From Syntrophaceae bacterium (GTDB lineage Bacteria > Desulfobacterota > Syntrophia > Syntrophales > Smithellaceae), in assembly GCA_003139775.1 (NCBI GenBank), contig PLGI01000131.1, positions 1 through 47,279 of the forward strand: a stretch of DNA of 47,279 nt, read 5' to 3'. Under the pieces are notes generated by a model, which saw only the letters and a program-made list of their open reading frames with translations, made no database searches and was not told the origin of the DNA. Positions 2,989 to 47,184 of this stretch are shown one piece after another. Positions within the stretch are counted from its first letter, which is position 1; each line of letters opens with the position of its first letter. Position numbers and translations under genes: made by a program.

Positions 2989-3024
2989 AAAGCGGCCAGC
3001 TTCAATACTGGCCGCTTTCGTTTA
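2989..3024 (+). terminator. Rho-independent terminator of rpsT
   Basis: Perfect 11-bp stem: AAAGCGGCCAG (2989-2999) pairs with CTGGCCGCTTT (3008-3018) across an 8-base loop, followed by a short T-rich stretch. Confidence 0.88.
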
Positions 3025-3108
3025 TTGTGAAACTCCAATTCCGAAAGCGAAGCGTAGCGGAATTGGTAAGTTGAACAATCCCGCAAAGCGCAGGGTTTAT
3101 ACCCGTGG
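3024..3108 (+). repeat. Palindromic repeat copy B (short GTGAAACTCC form)
   Basis: Carries the 5' end ATTGTGAAACTCC, the hairpin CCAATTCCG/CGGAATTGG, the joint GGTAAGTTGAACAATCCCGC and the 3' end TATACCCGTGG. The copy at 46845-46938 has the same plan. It lies directly behind the rpsT terminator. Confidence 0.85.
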
Positions 3109-11250: not shown

Positions 11251-13776
11251 TTATAGTTCATTCATTATTGTATTCATCATATCCTCCGGCAGTGATACTT
11301 CCTGATAGATATCGCGGATAGTATTACAATCCAAACGGTTATAATCGTCCAGGTGTGGCGTGATAACTACTCCGGCCATATCAATCGCTCCAGGAGAAAT
11401 AAATATTCTATTCTTGCCTTCGGCAAAATAGGCATCCGGACGATGTTTCTGCCGCAAAAATATGGCCAGCCGCCAGCAATCCCCGGTATAGTTGCAAATA
11501 ACATTAATAAGCGGCTCGTCATTTGTTATCAGTATTTTTTGCGCGACTTTCAATAAACGCAAAAATTGTTTTGTTAACTCGTCCGCGTTTTTTGACTCCA
11601 TAACAATAACAGAACGATCAAAACCTTTCCCCATGCTATATCGAACAGAAGATATCTCTTTAACCGGCGGCAGTTCTCTTAATTCACTTAAAAAAGCAAG
11701 GGCATTAACCGGGATTGCCTGAAAGTGCAGATGATCAGGCGCGGACGCTCCGCAAGCGGGGCCGTTGTAAAAAACAGCATAATCCGGCGATAAGCTCGTG
11801 CTTAATCGCAAAAGCCAATTTATTGATGAGGTAATTTCCTGCGGTTTATGCTCCAGCGCAACGATGGTAAAATGATTTTCAAAAATCGGCGCCGGGTTGC
11901 AAAGAATCAAATATTGATTACGATATAAAATGCCTTGCTGTTCACTCGGCAGATTGTCTTTACATAAAAAGCAGGGTCTGGATTTGATTGATTCGGCATC
12001 AACGGCAGCACCGCTGCTTACTGCCCTCTGCGGATTGAATTGCAGATAGATCTTATAGCCGCCGCAGGTAATTGATCGAGTACTCACATTGGCTAATTCC
12101 CTGTAAGCGCAAACAAGCTTCGGCCAGCTTTTCTTTTGGTCCGCTAAAAGATTCAGGCACAAGGCGGTAAGATTTTTTTGTTTCTCCCCTGGATATTGGG
12201 CAAAAATTATATTTCCCGATTCTTTTTTGTTTGTGAAACTCCTATTCCGAAAGCGAAGCGCAACGGAATTGGTAAGTTGAACAATCCCGCAACGCGGAGG
12301 GTATAATACCCCGCATCTTGCTGCGGAATATGTTTCCAAAGCTTGTTTTGGGGTTTCATACCCGTGATTTAGCATCTGCCGAGTTTTGATCTCTATGGAG
12401 CGGAGTTCATCTTTATAAAAATCATTGCGGTTTTGTTTTTCCACAGAAATTCCGGCGTCTGTATTGTCCGTCCAGCGACGGCATAAATAAAGACTTTCGT
12501 AAATTCTCCCGATTTTATATTCACGGGCAATCCGCAGCGCGACCGCGTAATCTTCACCATAGCTGACATTGGGAAAGCCGATCCTGCGGATGACAGCGGT
12601 ATTGAATGCCCGCGGCGCTCCCAGGCCATATATACGCAGCGCGTTATTGTGGCCGTTGGCTTGTGTCCATTCCTTATGGGCAATCAGACCCGGCGGGATT
12701 TTTTTCAGATGCTTATTGACAATCGTATAAGCACCTACGACCATCGCATAATTATCCTTGCATAAAGTATCAACAATTTTTTGCAGAGTTTGTTTTGAAC
12801 TGTAAAGGTCATCAGAATCAAGTTGGATGGCATAACGACCACAGTGAGAAGAATAAACGGCTTCATTCCAGCAGCCACCGATGCCCAGATCATGGCGTTC
12901 AGGAATAATGTTTTTTATCTTCTCATTCTTTCCCGCCAACTTTTTAATGATATCCGCGGTGCCATCCGTGGAATGATTATCCACGACAATAATATTAAAG
13001 TCGAAATTTGTTTTTTGCACCAACGCGCTTTGAATTGCTTCTTTAATGGTTTTTTTACGATTGAGCACAGGGATTATTATACTCGCCTCCACCGGAAAGA
13101 AATCATTTGTCCGGGGAGCCTTTTGTGTGCGCGCTTTTAAATAGGCGCCGGTCAGCTTTAGATAGTTAGTGGCCACTTTTTCCAGTTTTTTTTGTTGGAT
13201 GATATTTCCAGCCGCGGCATAGGCAAAATGGTTTTCGATTCGGTCATTGCCGTCCTTAATGCGCTTTGCTTTTCTATCTTCGACCGTATAGAGAAATTCC
13301 GGCACATGGAAAACCGGATGATCAATGGATACTTTCAGACGCAAATCGTATAAAGCAACATTTGTGTCGGATAGCAGTGAGCCGTATTTTTGCAGGACAG
13401 TTTTAACAGCCGAACAGGAAAAAAGCAAAAGGGACCCGAAATTAAAATCGTCACGGATGCTGCCTTGTTGATAATCTATAAGCGGATATTCAATGAGATG
13501 ATTTCCCTCGCGCAAAATAAAGTCTGAATAAATGATGCCGGCGTGTTTATTTTCGGCGATCTGCAGTAAGCGGCGCAAAGACAATTCATCACAGTTAATT
13601 TTTTTTTCGTTGGCAATCAGCAGCAAATATTTGCTGGATAATTTTTTCAGGAACAAAGAAAGCAGTTTGATTTCTTTAACGTCGCGCGTATCAGTTGGCC
13701 AACCGCTCATTGCCTCTTTTTCATTATTGACGGGCAGGAGCAGGAACCGGCCAAATTTTCGAACTGAGGATCTCAT
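11251..13776 (-). CDS. Glycosyltransferase family 2 fused to a DUF4922 (HxHxQ) domain
   Basis: The 841-residue protein has three parts. Residues 1-225 look like a degenerate GT-A half. Residues about 231-465 form a GT2 glycosyltransferase, with SIIIPVLNRKKTI, the nucleotide-sugar site DSDD (from residue 319) and a GED at about 407. Residues about 530-841 match DUF4922, related to GalT/GDP-galactose phosphorylase enzymes, with PCFLC near 600 and the catalytic-type HLHFQ at 682-686. The first enzyme would transfer a sugar and the second would move or release a nucleotide from a sugar phosphate; the pairing is inference. Residues about 469-515 are encoded by a repeat element read in frame, exactly in the linker. 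The M15 gene follows 13 bases later. No signal or membrane segment is seen. The true substrates are unknown. Confidence 0.8.
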   Translation of the reverse strand: MRSSVRKFGRFLLLPVNNEKEAMSGWPTDTRDVKEIKLLSLFLKKLSSKYLLLIANEKKINCDELSLRRLLQIAENKHAGIIYSDFILREGNHLIEYPLIDYQQGSIRDDFNFGSLLLFSCSAVKTVLQKYGSLLSDTNVALYDLRLKVSIDHPVFHVPEFLYTVEDRKAKRIKDGNDRIENHFAYAAAGNIIQQKKLEKVATNYLKLTGAYLKARTQKAPRTNDFFPVEASIIIPVLNRKKTIKEAIQSALVQKTNFDFNIIVVDNHSTDGTADIIKKLAGKNEKIKNIIPERHDLGIGGCWNEAVYSSHCGRYAIQLDSDDLYSSKQTLQKIVDTLCKDNYAMVVGAYTIVNKHLKKIPPGLIAHKEWTQANGHNNALRIYGLGAPRAFNTAVIRRIGFPNVSYGEDYAVALRIAREYKIGRIYESLYLCRRWTDNTDAGISVEKQNRNDFYKDELRSIEIKTRQMLNHGYETPKQALETYSAARCGVLYPPRCGIVQLTNSVALRFRNRSFTNKKESGNIIFAQYPGEKQKNLTALCLNLLADQKKSWPKLVCAYRELANVSTRSITCGGYKIYLQFNPQRAVSSGAAVDAESIKSRPCFLCKDNLPSEQQGILYRNQYLILCNPAPIFENHFTIVALEHKPQEITSSINWLLRLSTSLSPDYAVFYNGPACGASAPDHLHFQAIPVNALAFLSELRELPPVKEISSVRYSMGKGFDRSVIVMESKNADELTKQFLRLLKVAQKILITNDEPLINVICNYTGDCWRLAIFLRQKHRPDAYFAEGKNRIFISPGAIDMAGVVITPHLDDYNRLDCNTIRDIYQEVSLPEDMMNTIMNEL
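12231..12369 (+). repeat. Palindromic repeat copy C, in frame inside the GT2-DUF4922 gene
   Basis: Long form of the repeat: TTGTGAAACTCC, the first hairpin (CTATTCCG/CGGAATTGG), the AAGTTGAACAATCCCGC joint, a CCGCA/TGCGG hairpin and an AAAGCTTGTTTTGG segment, ending TTTCATACCCGTGATT. On the minus coding strand it reads without a stop, beginning NHGYETPKQ, as in gspK. Confidence 0.88.
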
Positions 13777-13805
13777 AAATTTTTTATTCCAGGTAGGCTG
13801 CTAAA

Positions 13806-14112: not shown

Positions 14113-14787
14113 TTAGAATCCGGACATCATCAGGTTAAAGGCTTTTTCCGCAGCGTCGTTGGACAGTTTAATGAACGCGTCTTTTCTGATCGCAGGCAGT
14201 AAATTAATGTCAGTGCTTAAGGTGTAGTCAACTGTGCCCGTTATATTTTTTGAGCTCCAGATAATTTTGCCGCTTTCATTTTCCAGAAAAGTCAATTCTA
14301 AAATAATTGTCGCCCGCTCTTCCGCCACCAGAGAATTGCTGTCATAAGCAAGGGGTGATGTATTAAGATTAAGAATCTTTCCTTTAACTATGGCATCCGC
14401 CGATTCAGCGCTTTCCACAATTTTTAAACGGCTGTTTTGAATAAACTGGTTAATGAACGCTGTCCGGACGTAATTTTCTATCCCGGCCTGTGCCGTTTTA
14501 TTATCGAAGGCCTCGACATAAATTTTTTGGATACGTTTATCAATATTCTCTCCTCTGGGGACAAAGGAATAGCCGCAGCCAAACAAGATAGCGAAAAAAA
14601 AGCAAATAATTCCTATTTTCATCACGGGTATGAACCTCAGGGTAAACTCTTGACCAAAATTTCGTCCCGAGAGACGGGGAATCATACCCTCCGCTTGCAG
14701 CGGGATTGTTCGACTTACAAATTTCAATGCACTTCGTTTTTGAAATTTGAGTCTCACAATAAATAATCGCCGGTTTTGTTTTCTCAT
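14113..14787 (-). CDS. lptE: LPS-assembly lipoprotein LptE, with a repeat-encoded N-terminal insert
   Basis: The mature domain (GYSFVPRGENIDKRIQKIYVE and onward) is a typical LptE, the outer-membrane lipoprotein that plugs and assembles LptD for LPS export. Translation has two candidate starts. The ATG at 14787 has a strong GAGGTG site six bases upstream and reads MRKQNRRLFI, then about 45 residues encoded by a repeat element, then MKIGIICFFFAILFGC with the lipobox Cys at residue 71. The ATG at 14622 begins directly at MKIGIIC but is preceded only by the repeat end (ACCCGTG). I chose 14787 because of its ribosome site; the insert would be removed by signal peptidase II. The gene starts 10 bases after the leuS stop, an order common in delta-proteobacteria. 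Confidence 0.82.
   Translation of the reverse strand: MRKQNRRLFIVRLKFQKRSALKFVSRTIPLQAEGMIPRLSGRNFGQEFTLRFIPVMKIGIICFFFAILFGCGYSFVPRGENIDKRIQKIYVEAFDNKTAQAGIENYVRTAFINQFIQNSRLKIVESAESADAIVKGKILNLNTSPLAYDSNSLVAEERATIILELTFLENESGKIIWSSKNITGTVDYTLSTDINLLPAIRKDAFIKLSNDAAEKAFNLMMSGF
14623..14764 (-). repeat. Palindromic repeat copy E, at the lptE 5' end
   Basis: On the minus strand it starts TTTATTGTGAGACTC and ends GGTTCATACCCGTG, abutting the ATG at 14622. The first hairpin has AAATTTCA/TGAAATTT arms. The frame from the lptE start at 14787 stays open through its whole length. Confidence 0.82.
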
Positions 14788-14797
14788 AAAAGACACC

Positions 14798-17386
14798 TCA
14801 TTTATGTTGAGCAACAATGTTGACCAGTTTCTTGGGCACATAAATAACTTTCAAAACATTCGCGCCTGACAGCAGGGAAATAATTTTTTCATCCGCCAGC
14901 GCGTCTGCTTTGATCTTTTCCGGATCTTCGTCTACCGCAACGGTCATCCTGCTGCGCAGTTTACCATTAATCTGCACAACAATTGTCATCTCTTCTTCGC
15001 TGGCAACTGCCGGATCAAATTGCGGCCAGGAAATATCAGCGGCCAAAGTTTTATGGCCGAGCATCTGCCAAAGCTCTTCCGTGATATGCGGCACAATCGG
15101 CACCAGTAATATAACAGCAGCCTCCAGAGCTTCCCGTATTGTGGCCAGCGCTATTTTATCATCACTCGCGGGACGTTTGATTTGATAGACGGCGTTGACC
15201 AACTCCATAACCGCGCTGATTGCCGTATTGAAATGGAAACGGTCTTCGATATCAATTGTTACTTTGCGGATAGTCTGATGGGTTTTGCGCCGCAGACCTT
15301 TTAATTCACCTTCCAGACCAACACCGGAAGGCAACGGATTGACGGCTTTAATATCCTCCAGATATTCGTCACAAATGCGCCACAGACGACTCAGGAAGCG
15401 GAACGACCCTTCCACGCCCTGATCGCTCCATTCCAAATCTTTTTCCGGCGGCGCGGCAAACAGACAGAATATCCGGGCGGTATCAGCGCCGTAAGTTTTT
15501 ATGAGATAATCAGGATCGATAACGTTCTTCAGCGATTTGGACATCTTTTCGGTCTTGCCAATTATGACATCCTTCCCGCAGATGTGGCATTTGCCGTCCG
15601 CAGCCTGCTCCGGGAAAAGATAACCATGTTCTTTGCACTTCATCGTTTCTTTGCAGACCATGCCCTGCGTCAGTAAATTGGTGAACGGCTCATCCACGCC
15701 GATCACGCCGAAATCACGCAGAACCTTGGTGTAAAAGCGGGAATAGAGCAGATGCAGAATGGCATGTTCAATGCCGCCGATATACTGATCAACAGGCATC
15801 CAGTAATCCAGTTTCTTGCGATCAAGACCGGGCTTGGTATCGCAATCCGGGCTGCAATAGCGGTCGAAATACCAGGAAGATTCCACAAACGTGTCCATCG
15901 TGTCCGTCTCCCTAGCGGCCTTGCCGCCGCATTTCGGGCAAGTCGTATCCACGAATTCTTTCAGGGCCGCGAGCGGAGACCCGCCTTCGGTGCTTAATTT
16001 AACATTTTCCGGCAGGACAACAGGCAGATCTTTTTCATCAACCGGAACAATGCCGCATTTATCACAGTTGATCATCGGAATCGGCGCGCCCCAATAGCGC
16101 TGACGGGAAATACCCCAGTCGCGCAGGCGATACTGAATGGTGCGTTTGCCTTTTCCTTGCGTTTCCAGAAAATCAGCGATTGCTTCCAGAACCTTGGTGT
16201 TTTCCATGCCGTCAAACTGGCCGGAGTTAACTAAAATACCCTCATCCACATAGGCTTCGGCCATCTTTTCCGCATCAAGCGTTTTACCTTTGGGCTGAAT
16301 AACAACAATAAGAGGCAGGTTAAATTTTTTGGCAAACTCGAAGTCGCGTTGATCGTGCGTAGGCACGGCCATGACACAGCCGGTGCCGTAATCAGCCAGA
16401 ACAAAATTGGCCGCAAAGATCGGCATTCCCTGGCCAGTTAAAGGATTTTTACAGTAGGCATCAAGAAAAAGGCCTTCCTTTTCATAATATTCGGAAGTCC
16501 GCATCAGTTTGTCCTGCTTTTTGACTTTCTCCACAAACTGCAAAACATCTTTTTCGATAGCCTTCCCTTTGGTTAATTGCATCACCAGTGGATGTTCCGC
16601 GGCAACCAGCATAAATGTTGCACCGAAGAGGGTATCCTGACGGGTCGTGAATACTTTGATGGCGCCGTTACTGTCAGCCATCGGAAAATCCACTTCGCAG
16701 CCGTAGCTTTTCCCAATCCAGTTTTTTTGCATAGTCATGACGCGTTCGGGCCAGCCGGGCAGTTTGTCGCAGTACTCAAGAAGTTCTTCAATGTAGGCGG
16801 TGATTTTGAAAAACCACTGATCCAGCACCTTCTCCTGCACTTCAGTACTGCAGCGCCAGCAGAGGCCGCTCTCAACCTGTTCGTTAGCCAGCACCGTATC
16901 GCACTTGCTGCAAAAATTAACAGTGGAGCGTTTTTTGTAAGCCAGACCTTTTTCATACATCCAGATAAAGAATAACTGTTCCCAACGGTAATATTTCGGC
17001 TCGCAGGTGGATATTTCCCTATCCCAGTCGTAGCTGAAGCCCATGCGTTTGAGCTGCTTTTTCATGTGATTGATATTTTCGTTGGTCCATTTCGCAGGAT
17101 GAATTTTATGTTCGATAGCCGCGTTTTCCGCAGGCAGGCCGAAAGAGTCCCAGCCCATCGGATGCAGAACGTTGAAACCCTTCATGTGCTTATAACGGGC
17201 AACAACATCGCCGATGGTGTAATTGCGGACATGACCGATATGAATTTTGCCGGAAGGATAAGGAAACATCTCCAGCAGATAATATTTTTTCTTTTGCGGG
17301 TCTTCCGTGACCTTGAAGGCTTTTTCATCCTCCCATTTTTTCTGCCATTTTTCTTCAATAACTAACGGTTCGTATTTCATTTTCAA
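14798..17386 (-). CDS. leuS: Leucyl-tRNA synthetase
   Basis: The 862 residues are the normal length of bacterial LeuRS. Class I signatures are present: HIGH at residues 49-52 ([17 protein letters not shown] region) and KMSKS at 614-618. The editing (CP1) domain is present, including the [18 protein letters not shown] segment used to clear mischarged tRNA. Zinc-type cysteine pairs appear near CSKCD/CWRC and CDKCG/CPKCG. The C-terminal anticodon-binding and tail regions are complete. It charges tRNA-Leu with leucine. It lies 10 bases upstream of the lptE start and 199 bases downstream of the PIN-like gene. Confidence 0.97.
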
Positions 17387-25479: not shown

Positions 25480-25538
25480 TCGCTAATACCTAAAAATGTC
25501 TTATCAAATTTATTAATCAGTTCCTAAGGGAGATGGCA

Positions 25539-27179
25539 ATGAAAAAATTGTACATGTTACTGGCGGCTGTGTTGCTTATGGTTATTACAGGTTGTGGTGG
25601 TGGCGGCGGTGGCGGTGGTTCCACGCCGGTATCACTATCGTCGACAAAAGTAATTACGGGATTTTCTCTGAACGACTGTTTCGGAATGATCGATGAAGCG
25701 GGAAAAACTATAGCTGTAACTATGCCTCTCGGCACAGATGTGACGACTCTGGTGGCGACATTTTACACAACCGGCGCCAGCGTCAAAGTTGGTTCAACCG
25801 TTCAGACGAGCGGTTCGATAACAAGTAACTTTTCTACCACCAGCCAGGTGACATATACAGTGACAGCGGCTGATGCTACGACACAGGATTATACAGTGAC
25901 AGTAACTGTAAGTTCATCATCTTCCGGCTTTCTTGATACAGGCTTTGGCGCAACCGGCACAGGTGGCAAAATAACCACAGCTATCGGAAGTAGTGATGAT
26001 GTTGCCCATGCTCTTGGCATCCAGTCTAACGGCAGTATTGTGGTAGCGGGAAGTTCCTACAATGGCAGCAACTATGATTTTGCCCTTGTGAGATATACAA
26101 AAGACGGGATAATTGATACAACCTTTGGCACTGCCGGAACCGGTAAAGTAACCACAGCTATTGGAAGTGGTGATGCTGCTGCCTATGCTCTTGTCATCCA
26201 GAAGTCTGTCGACACGATTTTGGTAGCGGGATATTTCTATAATAGCAATGACAGCAACTATTATTTTGCCCTTGTGAAATATACAAAAGACGGGATCCCT
26301 GATACAACCTTTGGCACAGGCGGCATAGTAACCACACTTATTGGAAGTAGTGGTGATTATACCTATTCTGCTCTTGGCGTCCAGTCTGACGGCAGTATTG
26401 TGGTAGCGGGAAGTCCCTACAATGGCAGCAAATATAATTTTGCCCTTCTGAGATATACAAAAGCCGGGATCCTTGATACAGGCTTTGGCACAGGCGGCAT
26501 AGTAACCACATCTATTGGAAGTAATAATGATTATGCCAATGCTCTTGTCATCCAGTCTGACGACACGATTTTGGTAGCGGGAAGAAGTTCCTACAATATC
26601 TTAAACAGCGAATATGATTTTGCCCTTGTGAAATATACAAAAGACGGGATCCCTGATACAACCTTTGGCACAGGCGGCATAGTAACCAAACTTATTGGAA
26701 ATACTGATGCTCAAGCCCATGCTCTTGGCGTCCAGTCTGACGGCAGTATTGTGGTAGCGGGAAGTTCCTACGATAGCACTAACAGCAAATATGATTTTGC
26801 CCTTCTGAGATATACAAAAGCCGGGATCCTTGATACAGGCTTTGGCACAGCCGGCATAGTAACCACATCTATTGGTATTGGCGGCAACTATGATTTTGCC
26901 TATGCTCTTGGCATCCAGTCTGGCGACAAGATTTTAGCAGCGGGATTTTCCAACAATGGCGGCAACTATGATTTTGCCCTTGTGAAATATACAAAAGACG
27001 GGATCCCTGATACAACCTTTGGCACAGGCGGCATAGTAACCACACCTATTGGAAGTAGTGATGATAATGCCTATGCTCTTGGCATCCAGTCTAACGGCAC
27101 GTCTTTTAAGATTGTGGTAGCGGGAAGTTCTTACAATGGCAGCAACTATGATTTTGCCCTTGCGAGATATTTGCCATAA
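25539..27179 (+). CDS. Surface lipoprotein with delta-60 repeats
   Basis: The protein has 546 residues from ATG 25539, chosen because AAGGGAG ends six bases before it. A lipoprotein signal ends at Cys19 in VITGC and is followed by a run of glycines. Residues about 30-125 form a small beta-rich domain (VTYTVTAADATTQDYTVTV) like those in other secreted lipoproteins. The rest is about seven delta-60 repeats (DTTFGTGGIVTT ... GVQSDGSIVVAGSSY ... YDFALVKYTKDGIP), a beta-propeller-like repeat found in secreted proteins. The repeats are nearly identical at DNA level, suggesting recent duplication or gene conversion. Function is unknown. It probably sits on the outer membrane and is strongly expressed. 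Confidence 0.82.
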   Translation: MKKLYMLLAAVLLMVITGCGGGGGGGGSTPVSLSSTKVITGFSLNDCFGMIDEAGKTIAVTMPLGTDVTTLVATFYTTGASVKVGSTVQTSGSITSNFSTTSQVTYTVTAADATTQDYTVTVTVSSSSSGFLDTGFGATGTGGKITTAIGSSDDVAHALGIQSNGSIVVAGSSYNGSNYDFALVRYTKDGIIDTTFGTAGTGKVTTAIGSGDAAAYALVIQKSVDTILVAGYFYNSNDSNYYFALVKYTKDGIPDTTFGTGGIVTTLIGSSGDYTYSALGVQSDGSIVVAGSPYNGSKYNFALLRYTKAGILDTGFGTGGIVTTSIGSNNDYANALVIQSDDTILVAGRSSYNILNSEYDFALVKYTKDGIPDTTFGTGGIVTKLIGNTDAQAHALGVQSDGSIVVAGSSYDSTNSKYDFALLRYTKAGILDTGFGTAGIVTTSIGIGGNYDFAYALGIQSGDKILAAGFSNNGGNYDFALVKYTKDGIPDTTFGTGGIVTTPIGSSDDNAYALGIQSNGTSFKIVVAGSSYNGSNYDFALARYLP

Positions 27180-27336
27180 TCACGGGAACCCCAAAGCAAG
27201 CTTTGGAAACAGATCCCGCAGTAAGCTGCGGGATATTAAACCCTCCGCTGCGCGGGATTGTTCAACTTACCAATTCCGCTATGCCTATAGTGACCTTTAG
27301 GTTATTCGCTTTCGGAATTGGAGTTTCAACAATAAA
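27178..27336 (-). repeat. Palindromic repeat copy H, at the delta-60 gene stop
   Basis: Long form in reverse orientation, with 3' end CCCGTGATTA overlapping the TAA stop at 27177-27179. The first hairpin loop contains TGACCTTTAGGTTA (27291-27304). CCCGCAG/CTGCGGG and AAAGCTTGCTTTG segments are as in copy C. The 353-bp gap to gspF otherwise holds the terminator, a third repeat and a possible promoter. Confidence 0.85.
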
Positions 27337-30263: not shown

Positions 30264-31112
30264 ATGACCGATCAACACATAAAAATAAACATTCGCAGAG
30301 GGATTCTTGAAAAAGCCCATATTTCGGGACTGTTCAAATACCCTGAAGGGCACGCGAATGCTCAGATGCAAGGTGCGCAAAAAAACGAATCGCGAGACGT
30401 ATATTATCATACTTTGAGCGGTGAGTTTTGCAGCGCAACACAGCATATGAGCGTTTTTCAACAGCCCCGCGACAGAGGATTTACACTGATCGAAATACTA
30501 ATTGCCATCTTTATTCTGGGATTGGTTCTGGCCACTGTTTATGCCTCCTACAGCGGCATTCTGAAAACTTCGCATCAGATGGAGGAAGAAGGCAACATTT
30601 ATAAAATGGCCCGTACTTCCATGGACAGAATGATTAAAGATTTATCGTCTTTGCAGTCCTCCTCCGGCTCCTTTGACTTTCACGCCGGGGAAAAAACATT
30701 AAGTAACCGGGAGTTTTATTCTCTTTCTTTCTGGTCGGCATCTCATCTGGCTTTTGGCGAAAATGAAGGCACAGGGCGTCCGGCGGCGATCAGTTACTAT
30801 GTGCAAGAGGATGAAGGCGGGAACAGCTTTTCTTTGTGGAGATCCGATGTATCCGGCGCCAAACCTTCTCCCGGAAAAAGCATCAGTGGCGGATTTCTGA
30901 TTTGTAAAAATATCGATTCCTGGAATTTAAGATTTTATGACTCGACAGGCAATGAATTAGAATCCTGGGATTCTTTATCTTTGACAGAGCAAAAAGACAA
31001 GGCCCCTGTAGCTGTAAAAATAGAACTGGCTCTGGTCAATTTAAATGACAAGGAAAAACCGTACAAATTTATGACGAAGGTATTTTTACCGGTAAAAAAA
31101 CAAACGCCATGA
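30264..31112 (+). CDS. gspJ: Minor pseudopilin GspJ
   Basis: The 282-residue frame has a prepilin site RG/FTLIEILIAIFILGLVLA after Gly72, so the leader is about 60 residues longer than usual. ATG 30447 would give the normal MSVFQQPRDRG leader, but no ribosome site precedes it, while 30264 is only three bases from the gspI stop. The extra leader DNA is bounded in part by a 7-bp inverted repeat (CATTCGC 30290-30296, GCGAATG 30354-30360), perhaps an old insertion. The mature part is a normal GspJ, a tip pseudopilin. Its stop overlaps gspK by four bases. Confidence 0.88.
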   Translation: MTDQHIKINIRRGILEKAHISGLFKYPEGHANAQMQGAQKNESRDVYYHTLSGEFCSATQHMSVFQQPRDRGFTLIEILIAIFILGLVLATVYASYSGILKTSHQMEEEGNIYKMARTSMDRMIKDLSSLQSSSGSFDFHAGEKTLSNREFYSLSFWSASHLAFGENEGTGRPAAISYYVQEDEGGNSFSLWRSDVSGAKPSPGKSISGGFLICKNIDSWNLRFYDSTGNELESWDSLSLTEQKDKAPVAVKIELALVNLNDKEKPYKFMTKVFLPVKKQTP

Positions 31113-32299
31113 AAAAACTATTTCACAACCATGGGTATAAAACACAAAGCAAACTTTGGAAACAATTCCGCGAGTTCGCTATGCGTATTATACCCTCCGC
31201 TGCATCCCCCCAATGGCGGGATAATTCGACCTGCAAATCCCCGCGCACTTCGTTTCGGAAATTGTTGTTTCACAACCCACTGCTTATGCGGGATTGTTCA
31301 ACTTACCAATTTCCGCGCACTTCGTTTCGGAAATTGTTGTTTCACAACAATCGTGGTATCGCGCTGATCACGGTAATATTGATTGTCGCTATTTTAATGG
31401 CTGTCGCAATCGAATTAAATAGATCGTCCCGCGCCGATATTTATGACGCGGCCAACCTAAGCGACGGCATTAAATTAACTTATATTGCCAAGTCCGGCTT
31501 TTACGGGGCCGCTGCATTGCTGACTAATGCCAACCCGGATCGCACTACTTTGCTTGACGCCTGGACACAAACGGAAATACTATCCATACAATCCAAGACT
31601 CTTTTCACTGACGGTTATTTTATCGTGACGGTTCAAGATGAAGCCGGTAAAATTCCTCTCAATAATCTGATAAACGGAAATAAATATAATCCGGACATCA
31701 AAGATATATTGATTCGGTTGCTAAGCCAGCCGGAATTCGGATTGGACGAAGGAAAAATAAATGAAATTGTCGATTCCATCAAAGACTGGATCGATGCTGA
31801 TGAAGAAGTCACCGGCGCCGGAGCGGAAAGTTCTTATTATGCTTCCTTGGATCCGCCTTATGAAGCGAAAAATGCTCCATTGGATTGCATTGAGGAATTG
31901 CTTATGGTAAAGGGAATAACCAATGAAATTTTCAACGGGACAAAAGAAAAACCGGGGTTAGCTCAGTACGTTACCGCCGACAGCGATGGCGCAATAAATA
32001 TCAATACTGCGCCCAAGATGGTTTTACGTGCACTTTCTGCCGAAATCAGCGCTGAATTGGCTGATAAAATGGATGAATACCGCCGGAAAGAAGGTAATGA
32101 TTTATCCAGTCCTCAGTGGTATAAACAAGTTCCCGGTATGGAAAACGTGAACATCTCGCCGGGACTGATTACGGTAAAAAGCAATTATTTTAAAATTATC
32201 TCCGTAGGATTGATGAAGAATATGACGCAAAGCTTAAGCGGTGTGGTAAAAAGATCAGAGCAAAAATCCTTCCAGATAATCAAATGGAGGCAGGATTAA
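31109..32299 (+). CDS. gspK: Minor pseudopilin GspK with a repeat-bearing leader
   Basis: The 396-residue protein is a GspK, the large tip pseudopilin: after Gly83 comes IALITVILIVAILMAVAIELNR, then a large helical domain with the family's IINTA-type region (INTAPKMVLRALS). The start MKKLFHN and the downstream NRGIALI would form a normal ten-residue leader, but 219 bases (73 codons) of repeat elements are inserted between them, read in frame. The insert should be removed when prepilin peptidase cuts after Gly83. The gene overlaps gspJ and gspL by a few bases. Confidence 0.9.
   Translation: MKKLFHNHGYKTQSKLWKQFREFAMRIIPSAASPQWRDNSTCKSPRTSFRKLLFHNPLLMRDCSTYQFPRTSFRKLLFHNNRGIALITVILIVAILMAVAIELNRSSRADIYDAANLSDGIKLTYIAKSGFYGAAALLTNANPDRTTLLDAWTQTEILSIQSKTLFTDGYFIVTVQDEAGKIPLNNLINGNKYNPDIKDILIRLLSQPEFGLDEGKINEIVDSIKDWIDADEEVTGAGAESSYYASLDPPYEAKNAPLDCIEELLMVKGITNEIFNGTKEKPGLAQYVTADSDGAININTAPKMVLRALSAEISAELADKMDEYRRKEGNDLSSPQWYKQVPGMENVNISPGLITVKSNYFKIISVGLMKNMTQSLSGVVKRSEQKSFQIIKWRQD
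31121..31348 (-). repeat. Palindromic repeat copy I, two units inside the gspK leader
   Basis: TTTCACAAC occurs at 31121-31129, 31268-31276 and 31340-31348, bounding units of 147 and 72 bases; both lengths are multiples of three. The units share CGCGCACTTCGTTTCGGAAA plus TTGTTGTTTCACAAC. In reverse they show GGTAAGTTGAACAATCCCGC, the family joint. The long unit ends in ATACCCATGG, the degenerate 3' end. Confidence 0.9.
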
Positions 32300-37179: not shown

Positions 37180-37914
37180 ATGAGCTACATAAATGAAGCA
37201 TTACGTAAGGTGCAAAAAGAGAAAGAATCACGCTATGTAGCCTATAAACATATTGTGTCGGCAGACGGAAAAAAACTTGAACAGCCAAAAAGATGGCTTT
37301 CACTAATGGGGATATCGATAGTTTTCTTCTTTGCCGCGGGAATTATTGTTCTGCTATATTGGTCTGAAGATAAAAAGATGCCGGTAATACAAAGGATAAG
37401 CGCGCCTCCTGTGGTGGCATCAGCTGTTGTTGCCGGACATAAGCCGGAGGGCAACACAAAAGTTGAGCTTACGCCGCAGGAAACAACCGCACCGGTTATA
37501 ACTAAGCAGGAGACTGCCAAATCGAAAGCTCTTTTCGCGCAAGCCCTTGATCGGCAACGTAAAGGGAAACTAGAAGAAGCCAAATTACTTTATCGAAAAG
37601 TGGTCAAATTTGATCAATATAACGTAAACGCATTTAATAATCTTGGTGTGATCTACATGAGTGAAAAAAATTACAAACGCGCAATTATGCGTTTTCATGA
37701 CGCGCTCAATATAAAACATGATTACACCGACGCTCATTATAATCTAGCCTGTCTTTACGCGCAAAAAAATGATGTGTCCCAGAGCCTGTTTTATCTAAAG
37801 AATGCAATTGAGTTTAACCCGAAAGTAAGAAAATGGGCTAAAAATGACGGCGATCTTAAGGCTCTGGCTAATTTACCTGAATTTAATAAACTTTTGGAGA
37901 AACAACAAAATTAA
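37180..37914 (+). CDS. GspB-like protein with tetratricopeptide repeats
   Basis: The first 70 residues (MSYINEALRKVQKEKESRY, then a transmembrane helix near residues 46-64) match the GspB/ExeB N-terminus. Instead of the normal GspB end, residues about 115-240 carry three TPR units (YNVNAFNNLGVIYMSEKNYK, YTDAHYNLACLYAQKNDV and flanking helices). The protein is thus inner-membrane with a periplasmic TPR domain. It likely works with GspA in assembling the secretin GspD, whose gene follows directly. Confidence 0.78.
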   Translation: MSYINEALRKVQKEKESRYVAYKHIVSADGKKLEQPKRWLSLMGISIVFFFAAGIIVLLYWSEDKKMPVIQRISAPPVVASAVVAGHKPEGNTKVELTPQETTAPVITKQETAKSKALFAQALDRQRKGKLEEAKLLYRKVVKFDQYNVNAFNNLGVIYMSEKNYKRAIMRFHDALNIKHDYTDAHYNLACLYAQKNDVSQSLFYLKNAIEFNPKVRKWAKNDGDLKALANLPEFNKLLEKQQN

Positions 37915-37915
37915 C

Positions 37916-40279
37916 ATGAAAACCATGCATCCTTTTATTTGTGAAACTCCAATTCCAAAAGCGAAGCGTATTGGAATTGGTAAGTTGAACAATCCCGCGA
38001 AGCGGAGGGTACAATACCCCGCAGCTTGCTGTGAGGGGTTCATACCCGTGATTATAAGACCGGGCATGTTCTCAGGCTGCATAATCGCGCTGATAATTTT
38101 GCTTTGTGCCGTAGGACCGGCATTTTCGGCTCGTATTGCCGGTACTGACGAAAATGTTAACACAATAACTACACCTGCGCAGAGCAAGGATGCCGTGCCG
38201 AAGGATAGTCCGGAAATAAAAGCGACTAATCCAGGGACATCAACAGAAGTTAAAACAGAAAATGTAATACAAAAGCCCAAAGAGATTAGGGCAGAGAAAC
38301 TGCCGGCCCATCCCGCGAAAAAAGAAACCTCTAAAAAATATGTAACCCTTGATTTCGACAATGTCGATATAAGCGTGCTGGTAAAGTTTGTCAGTGAACT
38401 TACCGGAAAAAATTTCATCATTGACGATAAAGTTAAAGGCAAGGTCACCATCATATCTCCTAAAAAAATTCCCTTGGAAAATGTCTATAAAGTCTTTCTG
38501 TCTGTTCTGGAAGTTAACGGGTTTACCGTCGTCCCCGCAGGGAATATGATTAAGATCATTCCCTCGGCTTTAGCGCGGGAAAAGGGCATGGAGACAAGGC
38601 TGAAAAATGAAATTGTCAGCCCGGAAGACCGTATGGTCACTCAAATAGTTACCTTGGAACGCGCCAACCCCGATGAAATAAAACGTGTTTTGGATCCGAT
38701 TATTTCCAAGTCCAGCTCGGTGCTTTCTTATCCTCCGGCGGGTATTTTGGTAATTACAGACTATCTGTCCAACATCAAACGACTGCAGGAAATCATATTC
38801 GCCCTTGATATTGAAGGGGCTGGGGATCAGATATCCTATATTCCGCTCACTAACGCTTCCGCCTCGGAAGTGGTGAAATCTTTGACAACGATTTTTCAAC
38901 AGCGCCGCCCCAATGCAGCGGTCATCAAAGTCGTCCCGGATTCCCGGACTAACTCAATTATAATTCTGGCCAGCGGCGCGGATACGGAAAGTGTGCGCAA
39001 ACTTGTTGCATTTATGGATAAAGACGTACCCCGCGGCGAATCCAATATTCAGGTTTACCGCCTGCAAAACAGCAATGCCGAAGATTTGGCAAAAGTTCTT
39101 AACAGTATTGTCAAAGATAGCGGCTCTGCAGCAGCAGCTGCTGGCGGCGCGGCTGCAACTCAAAAAGTGCTTGCTCCGGTGGTCTCGAAAAATGTCCAGA
39201 TCGTCCCGGATAAGGCAACCAATACACTGGTGGTTATGGCTGAGCGGGAAGATTATAAGATTCTCGAAAGTATTATCAAACAGCTCGATGTTCCGCGGCC
39301 CATGGTTTACATTGAGGCCTTAATTATGGAAGTCAACGCCACTAAAGCTTTTAATCTGGGTGTTGAATGGCGCGGTATGAGAGGTACGGGTGACGTCCTT
39401 GGTGCAGGTACAGCCGGCAATACGGCGGCGTTTATCGGTTCCGGAGGAGCCGGCAGCACTACCAACCCCGGCGGCTACAATATCCTCGATGGTTTAACTA
39501 CGGTAAATTCGGATGGAACTATTTCGGCTGCTTTCCCGGGTGGTTTTTCCATGGGTATCGTCGGCAGCGGCATTACCATTGGCGGCGTTACCTTTCCTAG
39601 CATCGGAGCCGTCATTCAGGCATACAAGACGGATCAGGAAGTCTCCATTTTATCCACCCCCCAGATCATGACATTGGATAATGAAGAGGCGGAAATAAAT
39701 GTGGGCGAAAATGTTCCCTACATAACCTCACAGCAGAGTTCTTCAACGACAACGACAACCTCCCTGTCCCCGCTCAACTACAACAGCTATGAATACCGGG
39801 ATGTCGGCGTGATCTTGAATATCACACCGCATATCAACGAAGATAATTTTATCCGCCTGAAAATATCGCAGCAGGTAACCAAACTTACATCCGCCGCCAC
39901 TTCCACAACACCGACAACTTTAAAAAGAACCGCAAAAACTACGGTAGTGGTCAAGGATAATGAAACAGTTGTTATCGGCGGCCTGGTGGGGGACAGTACG
40001 GAGAACGATACATATAAAGTGCCGCTGCTGGGCGATATTCCTATTCTGGGCTGGCTTTTTAAAACACATTCCACTTCCCGGGAAAAAACAAATCTGTATG
40101 TCTTTTTGACGCCGCATATCGTCCGCACCCAGAAGGATGCCGCCGGTCTTTATCAGGAAAAAAGAGAAACAATGGGCGAAGTGGTGGAGGGAATCATCAA
40201 GTTGAATGAAAAAAAATCAGAGCTGAAGTCTCCCTCTGCACCTGCTCCTGCCGAAAACAAAACACCGGCTAAACCTTAA
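37916..40279 (+). CDS. gspD: Type II secretion secretin GspD with an element-derived leader
   Basis: From ATG 37916 the protein has 787 residues. After about 50 leader residues (of which about 40 come from a repeat) lies the signal sequence MFSGCIIALIILLCAVGPAFSA. N0 (DFDNVDISVLVKFVSELTGKNFI) and repeated N domains follow, then the secretin domain, with VPLLGDIPILGWLFKTHS near the end. Fifteen-fold rings of GspD form the outer-membrane pore. ATG 38066 would begin directly at the signal sequence, but no ribosome site precedes it. I chose 37916, two bases from the gspB-like stop, though its ribosome site is also weak. Confidence 0.88.
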   Translation: MKTMHPFICETPIPKAKRIGIGKLNNPAKRRVQYPAACCEGFIPVIIRPGMFSGCIIALIILLCAVGPAFSARIAGTDENVNTITTPAQSKDAVPKDSPEIKATNPGTSTEVKTENVIQKPKEIRAEKLPAHPAKKETSKKYVTLDFDNVDISVLVKFVSELTGKNFIIDDKVKGKVTIISPKKIPLENVYKVFLSVLEVNGFTVVPAGNMIKIIPSALAREKGMETRLKNEIVSPEDRMVTQIVTLERANPDEIKRVLDPIISKSSSVLSYPPAGILVITDYLSNIKRLQEIIFALDIEGAGDQISYIPLTNASASEVVKSLTTIFQQRRPNAAVIKVVPDSRTNSIIILASGADTESVRKLVAFMDKDVPRGESNIQVYRLQNSNAEDLAKVLNSIVKDSGSAAAAAGGAAATQKVLAPVVSKNVQIVPDKATNTLVVMAEREDYKILESIIKQLDVPRPMVYIEALIMEVNATKAFNLGVEWRGMRGTGDVLGAGTAGNTAAFIGSGGAGSTTNPGGYNILDGLTTVNSDGTISAAFPGGFSMGIVGSGITIGGVTFPSIGAVIQAYKTDQEVSILSTPQIMTLDNEEAEINVGENVPYITSQQSSSTTTTTSLSPLNYNSYEYRDVGVILNITPHINEDNFIRLKISQQVTKLTSAATSTTPTTLKRTAKTTVVVKDNETVVIGGLVGDSTENDTYKVPLLGDIPILGWLFKTHSTSREKTNLYVFLTPHIVRTQKDAAGLYQEKRETMGEVVEGIIKLNEKKSELKSPSAPAPAENKTPAKP
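37937..38053 (+). repeat. Palindromic repeat copy J, in frame at the gspD start
   Basis: ATTTGTGAAACTCC, hairpin CCAATTCCA/TTGGAATTGG, GGTAAGTTGAACAATCCCGC, CCCCGCAGCTTGCTGTGAGGGG and end TTCATACCCGTGATTA. The forward frame reads ICETPIPKAKRIGIGKLNNP and stays open to the gspD signal sequence. Confidence 0.9.
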
Positions 40280-46809: not shown

Positions 46810-46899
46810 ATGTTGTCGAAAATTCTCGGCAAGGTAAGATCCTATTTATTGTTGAAACTCCAATTCCGAAAGTGCAGCGTAGCGGAATTGGTAAGTTGA
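46810..46899 (+). pseudogene. Start of a possible gene cut by repeat copy K
   Basis: AAGGAAG lies about eight bases before ATG 46810. The frame reads MLSKILGKVRSYLLL and enters the repeat, stopping at TGA 46897. The good ribosome site suggests a real start that lost its body, but no downstream homology is visible. Confidence 0.3.
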
Positions 46900-46938
46900 A
46901 CAATCCCGCGAAGCGGAGGGTTTCATACCCGTGATTAT
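46845..46938 (+). repeat. Palindromic repeat copy K (short form)
   Basis: ATTGTTGAAACTCC, hairpin CCAATTCCG/CGGAATTGG, GGTAAGTTGAACAATCCCGC, end TTTCATACCCGTGATTA. Same plan as copy B. The rest of the 401-bp gap holds the ATTTTTGTTGGCGTCGTTG segment at 46979-46997 (shared with the hairpin at 17458) and no clear gene. Confidence 0.85.
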
Positions 46939-47184
46939 GCGCTCTCCTTATGGGAATGCGTTTCCGATCAAAGCGTTATTTTTGTTGGCGTCGTTGTCGG
47001 CTTCCTCAACGTATTATTGCACTCGCCGCTTAAGTAAACCTTCTTTTTTTTCAGCTGTTTTATGATCCTTTCCGATACTTCAACGTTTCATCAGTTTCTT
47101 CTAATATAAAACTGATCTGCCCCTGCAGGCTGAACAGTAATCAGCGTCTAGCATATGCTCGTTGTCCGCTCCCCATTCTATCAA

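Follow-up and report, generated by a model that had tools for sequence, protein, structure and literature searches.

Why the type II secretion pseudopilin gene gspK carries 73 additional codons in the leader that precedes its prepilin cleavage site is the question raised by this locus, which lies in a 47,279-nucleotide stretch of a Smithella-like genome (hereafter the window). The reading we favor, with a probability of roughly 0.82, is that the insert is an old, non-autonomous, hairpin-forming mobile repeat of IS200/IS605-like type, here named e1, and that in-gene copies of this repeat survive mainly in harmless leaders.

The gspK gene contains an in-frame leader insert

The gspK ORF encodes 396 aa. 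It was assigned to GspK by a T2SSK_1st match (E 3.5e-20) and by the segment GIALITVIL following the leader, with the T2SSK domains lying after a class III signal; the T2SSK domain itself had an E-value of 5.2e-5, slightly below its Pfam cut-off. The gene ends a pseudopilin run in which gspG was identified by Pfam and gspI by a match slightly below the cut-off, and gspH and gspJ were identified only by the N-terminal methylation motif and gene order. The start codon of gspK is shared with the stop codon of gspJ (ATGA). The features of the leader are as follows.

31109..32299, plus strand: gspK, type II secretion pseudopilin K (ORF; Pfam T2SSK_1st)
31130..31348, plus strand: 219-bp in-frame insert (73 codons) in the gspK prepilin leader, a dispersed repeat; the empty leader MKKLFHNNRG is found in locus L054 of genome G008
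31128..31274, plus strand: modules A and B1 of e1 (limits of the nhmmer hit; alignment A1)
31275..31347, plus strand: module B2 of e1 (hit limits, L047 1427-1499; fold; alignment by eye)
31346..31351, plus strand: AACAAT adjoining the 3' end of e1, in the place of an AATAAA-like target; the empty orthologue L032/L048 reads AATAAT here

The motif TTTCACAAC starts at 31121, 31268, and 31340, giving the spacings of 147 and 72 that the initial annotation had reported, and a direct repeat of 61 nt at 31216/31288 shows 87% identity. Translation of the ORF confirmed that the Gly before IALITVIL is pushed to residue 83, and the shared reading RDxSTxxxPRTSFRKLLFHN is present in both units. The expectation that removal of 219 bases would restore a normal leader was matched letter for letter, as MKKLFHNNRGIALI occurs in the G008 orthologue, where the empty-leader DNA ATGAAAAAACTATTTCACAACAATCG equals the window sequence flanking the insert on both sides. 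The statement that prepilin peptidase removes everything before the Gly needs correction: according to the available text of PMC10191384, the cut is made after the Gly. Considering that G008 has TTTCAC without an insert, the first TTTCAC in gspK looks like native flank rather than a copy of the repeat. The motif would then consist of the element end plus native flank, and a target duplication of TTTCACAAC was rejected on this ground.

e1 is a dispersed, hairpin-forming repeat

When window positions 31109-31360 were compared with the own genome, at least 45 matches, including the query itself, were obtained from scoring 40 of 201 candidate stretches. They are spread over many contigs, a recurrence well in excess of chance. 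From the stretches read, e1 occupies 112 places on 51 contigs. A canonical copy matched all 17 genus genomes and 14 of 19 further genomes of the family; among 24 genomes at the order level it matched 5, most of them weakly (best E 9e-12). One translated reading of e1, that used in an outer membrane efflux protein (OEP), was found in at least 16 of the 17 genus genomes among the matches listed. We propose that e1 would have spread through the taxonomic family of the Smithella-like genome, behaving as a palindrome-associated element beside a short AATAAA/TTTATT target.

The copies read in context begin with AATCACGGGTATGAAC and end with TTTCAC or TTTCAACAAT. Some have the modules A-B2 (short form) and others A-B1-B2 (long form); the gspK copy is of the long form, whose order was also found at L002, L014, and L029. 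The initial annotation had described the 72-base unit as a partial second copy. This appearance arises because B1 and B2 have identical 3' parts in gspK, and to that extent the description holds; the units, however, are modules of a dispersed element, so that the supposed duplication private to gspK gives way to a genome-wide repeat family. Three further copies of e1 were mapped in the window.

27178..27335, plus strand: e1 copy between a repeat-rich ORF (ending at 27179) and gspF
3023..3104, minus strand: partial e1 copy
46846..46966, minus strand: partial e1 copy

The repeat-rich ORF (25533-27179, 548 aa) has a lipoprotein-like N-terminus and consists largely of 180/354-nt tandem repeats (25956-27170; 3.4-6.8 copies, 77-83% matches).

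A consensus built from 26 copies contained two-sided compensatory changes in 12 of its 22 pairs. Compared with shuffled sequences, the plus strands of the copies at L010, L234, and L006 folded with z-scores of -5.4, -6.5, and -7.5, and the two e1 parts of gspK with -2.5 and -2.3. As DNA hairpins of a mobile element would give the same pairing signal, the fold is not proof of RNA function. Rfam searches returned no family for the window, a match far under the threshold for one e1 copy, and nothing for one copy of a second repeat, e2; by these searches, e1 and e2 as members of a known RNA family were ruled out. The second repeat has 33 matches in the own genome, itself included, and its copies show the terminal inverted repeats GGGGCTGTTCAAAAA / TTTTTCAACAGCCCC, as MITEs do. 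The element e1 is unlike a MITE in both respects: by eye, the ends AATCACGGG and TTTCAC were not inverted copies of each other, and there was no target duplication. A small nested hairpin was also observed inside the loops, of the GTGACCTTTAGGTTAT type in e1 (L024, L131, and window 27178-27335) and of the GTGCCCTTCAGGGTATG type in e2, with a similar one in the gspK leader of G014 (L062), as if modules are swapped between repeat families.

Junctions resemble those of IS200/IS605-type elements

Filled and empty junctions were compared by eye at eight sites, and no target duplication was observed. The closest empty site contained TTTATT/AATAAA exactly in four cases (OEP, DUF5648, LptE, and GT2) and with one mismatch in three (gspK, gspD, and gspD of G006); the motif was absent from one (the L002 gene). 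Where present, it occurs once in both the filled and the empty gene, and empty orthologues at a greater distance often have it altered. For a set of 40 own copies, selected because their 3' end was clear, AATAA followed within nine bases in 32, and no such motif was seen by eye in the 5' flanks of e1 copies. Subterminal hairpins, a short flanking target on one side, and the absence of target duplication are marks of the IS200/IS605 type.

The own genome encodes two Y1_Tnp genes, with no e1 copy within 1.5 kb of either and no e2 match in the two loci. With no e1 copy beside a Y1 transposase gene, the mobility of e1, which would depend on a transposase of this type, is putative. A REP/RAYT relationship was considered and set aside, as the two Y1_Tnp loci lack e1 and e2 and the ends of L091 differ by eye.

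In-gene copies are concentrated in export leaders

The census was limited to frames that contained no less than 70% of an element together with 80 aa or more beyond it. This yielded 29 frames, 15 of which were set aside for having neither a Pfam hit nor orthologue data or for being antisense (window 37876-38484). The remaining 14 comprised seven leader cases, two internal cases, a lipoprotein leader in L147 whose relative in L220 is also filled, two C-terminal tails, and the MogA and MoaA cases. Orthologue comparison in the own genome gave nine in-frame insertions in genes, seven in an N-terminal export leader and two elsewhere. Four of these, besides gspK, lie in the window.

30357..30468, plus strand: e2 core (inverted ends), in frame within the leader of gspJ (30264-31112); empty orthologue L032, MTDQPIKKNICVNGFTLVEI
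37935..38053, minus strand: e1 copy, in frame between the start and the hydrophobic core of the gspD signal peptide (ORF 37844-40279); empty orthologue L032
14621..14762, plus strand: e1 copy in the LptE lipoprotein gene (14116-14850, minus strand; Pfam LptE, E 8e-12), within the n-region of the signal peptide
12228..12369, minus strand: in-frame e1 copy in a gene on the minus strand (11254-13800), in the linker that joins its GT2 and DUF4922 domains; orthologue L225 without e1

All seven leader cases, namely GspK, GspD, LptE, the TolC-type protein (OEP), a DUF5648 protein, an exported protein in L002, and GspJ, have the element ahead of the hydrophobic segment; the element is e2 in GspJ and e1 in the other six. 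GspD reads MKTMHP[e1]IIRPGMFSGC compared with MKTMHLIIRPGLLAGG in L032. LptE reads MRKQNRRLF[e1]KIGIICFFF compared with MKKQNWLLFIKIGLICLF in L205, and the interruption was absent from all 11 orthologue loci (10 genomes). For the OEP, MWMSAKTIHT[e1]FMAFFLLGTSAFAQ corresponds to MWMSAKTIHTFIFAMAVFLLGTSVFAQ in G014; of six related loci, that of G010 contains the element, three closely related ones lack it, and the remaining two, which are more distant, have a different N-terminus without the element. The DUF5648 protein reads LKIKNNFIFT[e1]IFALIVYPF compared with MLKIKNYFIFIIFALIVYPF, with all seven orthologues empty. The L002 protein has no Pfam hit, and nine of its ten orthologues are empty, the filled one being that of G014. 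Translation of LptE and gspD could conceivably begin after the element (in gspD at the ATG at 38066).

Sec signal peptides are removed as a whole. Since the prepilin leader stays cytoplasmic, or the added stretch leaves with the signal peptide, the mature protein would be unchanged; an insert upstream of the hydrophobic segment should not affect it, provided that the insert contains no stop codon and has a length of 3n bases. In-gene insertions would thus survive chiefly where an extra peptide does no harm, and the best place would be the stretch from the start codon to the hydrophobic segment of an export signal. The initial annotation had proposed that the gspK insert is tolerated because its leader is cut off, and the six further leader insertions strengthen this proposal. 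The target may contribute to the leader pattern as well, as TTTATT encodes Phe-Ile, with which hydrophobic segments typically begin. In the minus-orientation cases, the target at the edge of this segment is read as Phe-Ile or Phe-Val, which may steer insertions there.

Two cases run counter to leader tolerance, as e1 also interrupts two presumably cytosolic proteins, the GT2-DUF4922 protein and an Fe-ADH protein. In the latter the insert is missing, judged by length, from three orthologues, and G008 seems to share it. The C-terminal e1 tails, on MoaC- and HemD-like proteins, may tell against it as well. Where e1 lay near the 5' end of the cytosolic genes inspected, it preceded the likely native start (MogA and MoaA, with further examples from G008, G014, and G012). 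Five further e1 stretches with long frames, among the matches listed from other genomes, added no leader or internal case; by eye, either the element lay before the likely native start or the frame was antisense.

The binomial probability of at least seven leader insertions among nine was 1.7e-12 if leaders make up an assumed 1.25% of coding DNA and 2.6e-8 if they make up 5%, figures that serve as a guide only, given that the background is assumed and selection is ignored. The use of various frames and orientations indicates that the peptide itself is not what matters. Net charge was +5 to +11 in six of the seven leader inserts, -1 in that of GspJ, and +5 and +2 in the two internal inserts; with these values, positive charge was rejected as a requirement of leaders.

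Several observations were made alongside the census. Elements of e1 type lie at the edges of three molybdenum-cofactor type genes on different contigs (L003, L148, and L007), as the MoaC tail and upstream of the likely MoaA and MogA starts. A LEA_2 lipoprotein-like gene has e1 before its lipobox both in L220 (G026, long form) and in the own L147 (rearranged form), and no empty orthologue was seen. The gspH leader, searched against the own genome, matched only itself and was excluded as a further repeat insertion.

Secretion loci of relatives are interrupted in leaders

The gspK leader could be read in 15 genus genomes, for G011 and G013 in named records assigned to them by contig position: five contain e1, nine have a short leader, and one has a different long leader. 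The alignment with relatives that had been recommended yielded five orthologues with a long leader of the e1 kind, which show repeat homology, and a single other long leader (L045) that shows none. The five therefore do not supply what the initial annotation had named as a refutation, namely the same long leader without repeat homology. The latter, in a Smithella MAG, has ~34 aa and no e1 or e2 match.

Elements e1 or e2 were found in the gspK leader of five species (G000, G012, G010, G005, and G014) and in the gspJ leader of four (G000, G014, G006, and G003). In locus L037 of G006, the gspD leader contains a separate e1 copy that is read in a different frame. Further e1/e2 matches in the type II secretion loci of relatives lay next to gspG and in a few places outside mapped genes. 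No e1 or e2 match was found in the mapped mature coding parts of these loci, which also favors tolerance within the leader. Across 194 gene-locus pairs of mature gspG to gspK (46 partly redundant loci), there were two insertions of at least 8 aa, each of them in L043, a distant locus. The mature gspG of L032 seemed to contain a further insertion of 27 aa, which proved to be a run of N.

The gspJ leaders of G008 and G009 contain a third repeat, with 15 and 24 matches, respectively, gspJ copies included, and those of G001 and G004 read like them. The gspG leader of L046 has a long insert-like stretch, HGIIPLTLRTSRNSFSASVIKSESH, without an e1 or e2 match, perhaps another repeat family.

Age and possible use of the gspK copy

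When the 17 genus genomes were searched for CGGAAATTGTTGTTTCACAA with up to two mismatches, its occurrences were limited to the gspK genes of the five filled species, one other e1 copy of G014, and one apparent chance match of G002. This distribution speaks for one ancestral insertion into gspK, followed by losses and rearrangements, and hence for an insert that is old and probably of single descent. The tree is weak at the deciding nodes, with filled and empty species mixed, so that the insert may also have been transferred between species. The leader of G008 is identical to the window flanks and that of its close relative G001 reads MGKTVLNNKG; judging from the letters, the short leader of G008 looks like a clean loss between TTTCACAAC copies.

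Between species, the last 72-nt unit of gspK differs at 3-10 of 60-72 sites, compared with 21-41 of 71-93 4-fold sites in the mature gene. Fisher tests on the ten pairs, which are not independent, gave p 3e-3 to 3e-8 (a nested 21-nt stretch of G014 was left out). A copy that changes more slowly than 4-fold sites is not predicted by pure indifference. In none of the ten pairs did silent codon differences outnumber those that change the amino acid, and in the OEP element the latter led by 4 to 0. These counts indicate that it is not the peptide that is conserved, and they gave no support for selection at the peptide level. The slow unit may reflect either a useful hairpin, with coupled gspK translation as the obvious candidate, or recombination between species.

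It is possible, although we consider it doubtful, that the gspK copy has been put to use, with a hairpin at the 5' end of the RNA (or in the DNA) tuning GspK translation or the ratio of GspK to the other pseudopilins. Such a use would fit the slow change of the last unit and the overlap of the gspK start with the gspJ stop. It would also fit a 9-bp stem, CAATTTCCG/CGGAAATTG, that is constant in the five filled species and has a variable loop (alignment by eye), and a hallmark stretch of the unit nearly confined to gspK in the 17 genus genomes. However, the nine genomes with a short leader, among the 15 that could be read, include close relatives of the filled species in a tree with weak nodes, and recombination between species could also give slow change. 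The OEP element is similarly slow, with 96.5% identity in the element and 89.2% in the mature gene, and conversion from near-identical copies is likely there. An extended version, which we regard as rather unlikely, has the cleavable export leader as a standing landing zone for translated mobile hairpins, which unrelated repeat families would enter repeatedly and in various frames, owing to the Phe-Ile target and the discarded product, and the gspK copy kept as an RNA hairpin that sets GspK output.

The true gspK start could lie downstream, for example at the ATG at 31286 or near codon 80, with the upstream frame open by chance. In-frame ATG codons do occur at 31181 and 31286, and in MogA and MoaA the element precedes the likely native start. 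But the gspJ stop overlaps the upstream gspK ATG, and the first codons are MKK or MKN in several filled and empty orthologues (exceptions are MGK in L053 and MMN in L059); these observations contradict a start near codon 80, which had been named earlier as grounds for abandoning the long leader. Moreover, from any start after the element, the OEP, the DUF5648 protein, and the L002 protein would be predicted to lack a usable signal peptide. We consider a downstream start improbable.

An internal tandem duplication in the gspK leader, with no mobile element, was suggested by the 147- and 72-bp units being in register, and two near-identical units in G005 show that duplication or conversion inside the leader did occur. 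As a full account it is refuted, since the sequence recurs throughout the genome, has the same A-B1-B2 order elsewhere, and splits unrelated genes, which leaves it with very little probability. An assembly or binning artefact, conceivable in a genome of 206 contigs with 2.9% estimated contamination given that repeats mislead assemblers, is hardly credible with the same type of gspK leader in five genomes, three of which match the records UBA2180, Go_SlDig_bin_11, and fen_1165.

Relation to known systems and significance

The PATEs of Haloquadratum share the palindromes of IS605-type elements and, like them, are not known to make target duplications. The element e1 resembles them by anatomy alone, and no partner with matching ends was found here. 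According to the parts of PMC3119063 available, IS605-type transposons have palindromes near their ends and make no target duplications, and transposase-free mobile repeats without terminal inverted repeats occur beside them.

Protein genes of Rickettsia are known to contain small dispersed palindromic repeats in frame (PMC2229807 and PMC10969869, as far as these texts were available), and the title of a work in a reference list points to a Wolbachia counterpart. Like the Rickettsia elements, e1 is inserted in frame in conserved genes, as shown by orthologues without the insert. The two differ in host lineage and are likened here by description, not by sequence; unlike e1, the Rickettsia elements are described in metabolic and other conserved genes, with no mention of a concentration in export leaders in the passages available. 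The enterobacterial repeats RU-1, RU-2, and RU-3 (Delihas 2007, in the portion available) are MITE-like and fused in frame, as is e1; they supply part of the signal, whereas in seven proteins e1 or e2 interrupts the native signal before its hydrophobic core, as empty orthologues show. Long prepilin leaders, as in type IVb pilins and the pilins of Streptococcus sanguinis, are of variable length and cytoplasmic before cleavage, and, unlike that of gspK, they are not described as repeat insertions in the sections available (PMC10191384).

Searches of the open literature on repeats of Smithella/Syntrophaceae, insertions in prepilin leaders, and palindromic elements or MITEs with signal peptides revealed no concentration in export leaders among the best matches per search, as far as their text was available (PMC5771137 and PMC3119063 included). 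In-frame palindromic insertions were already known from Rickettsia and others; for their concentration in export leaders, no earlier report was found.

The usual question about in-frame mobile repeats is how the folded protein survives them. The answer offered here is that they accumulate where the peptide is discarded, and it can be tested in any genome. Our results suggest that removable leaders are a refuge where mobile repeat DNA lands without breaking the gene. They also carry a warning for annotation, because, in genomes of this kind, N-terminal extensions of 40-80 aa on exported proteins can be real coding repeats rather than wrong starts. The gspK gene provides a concrete case in which an old insertion may have become a regulatory hairpin; if this is true, junk in a throw-away peptide would have become a regulator of GspK output.
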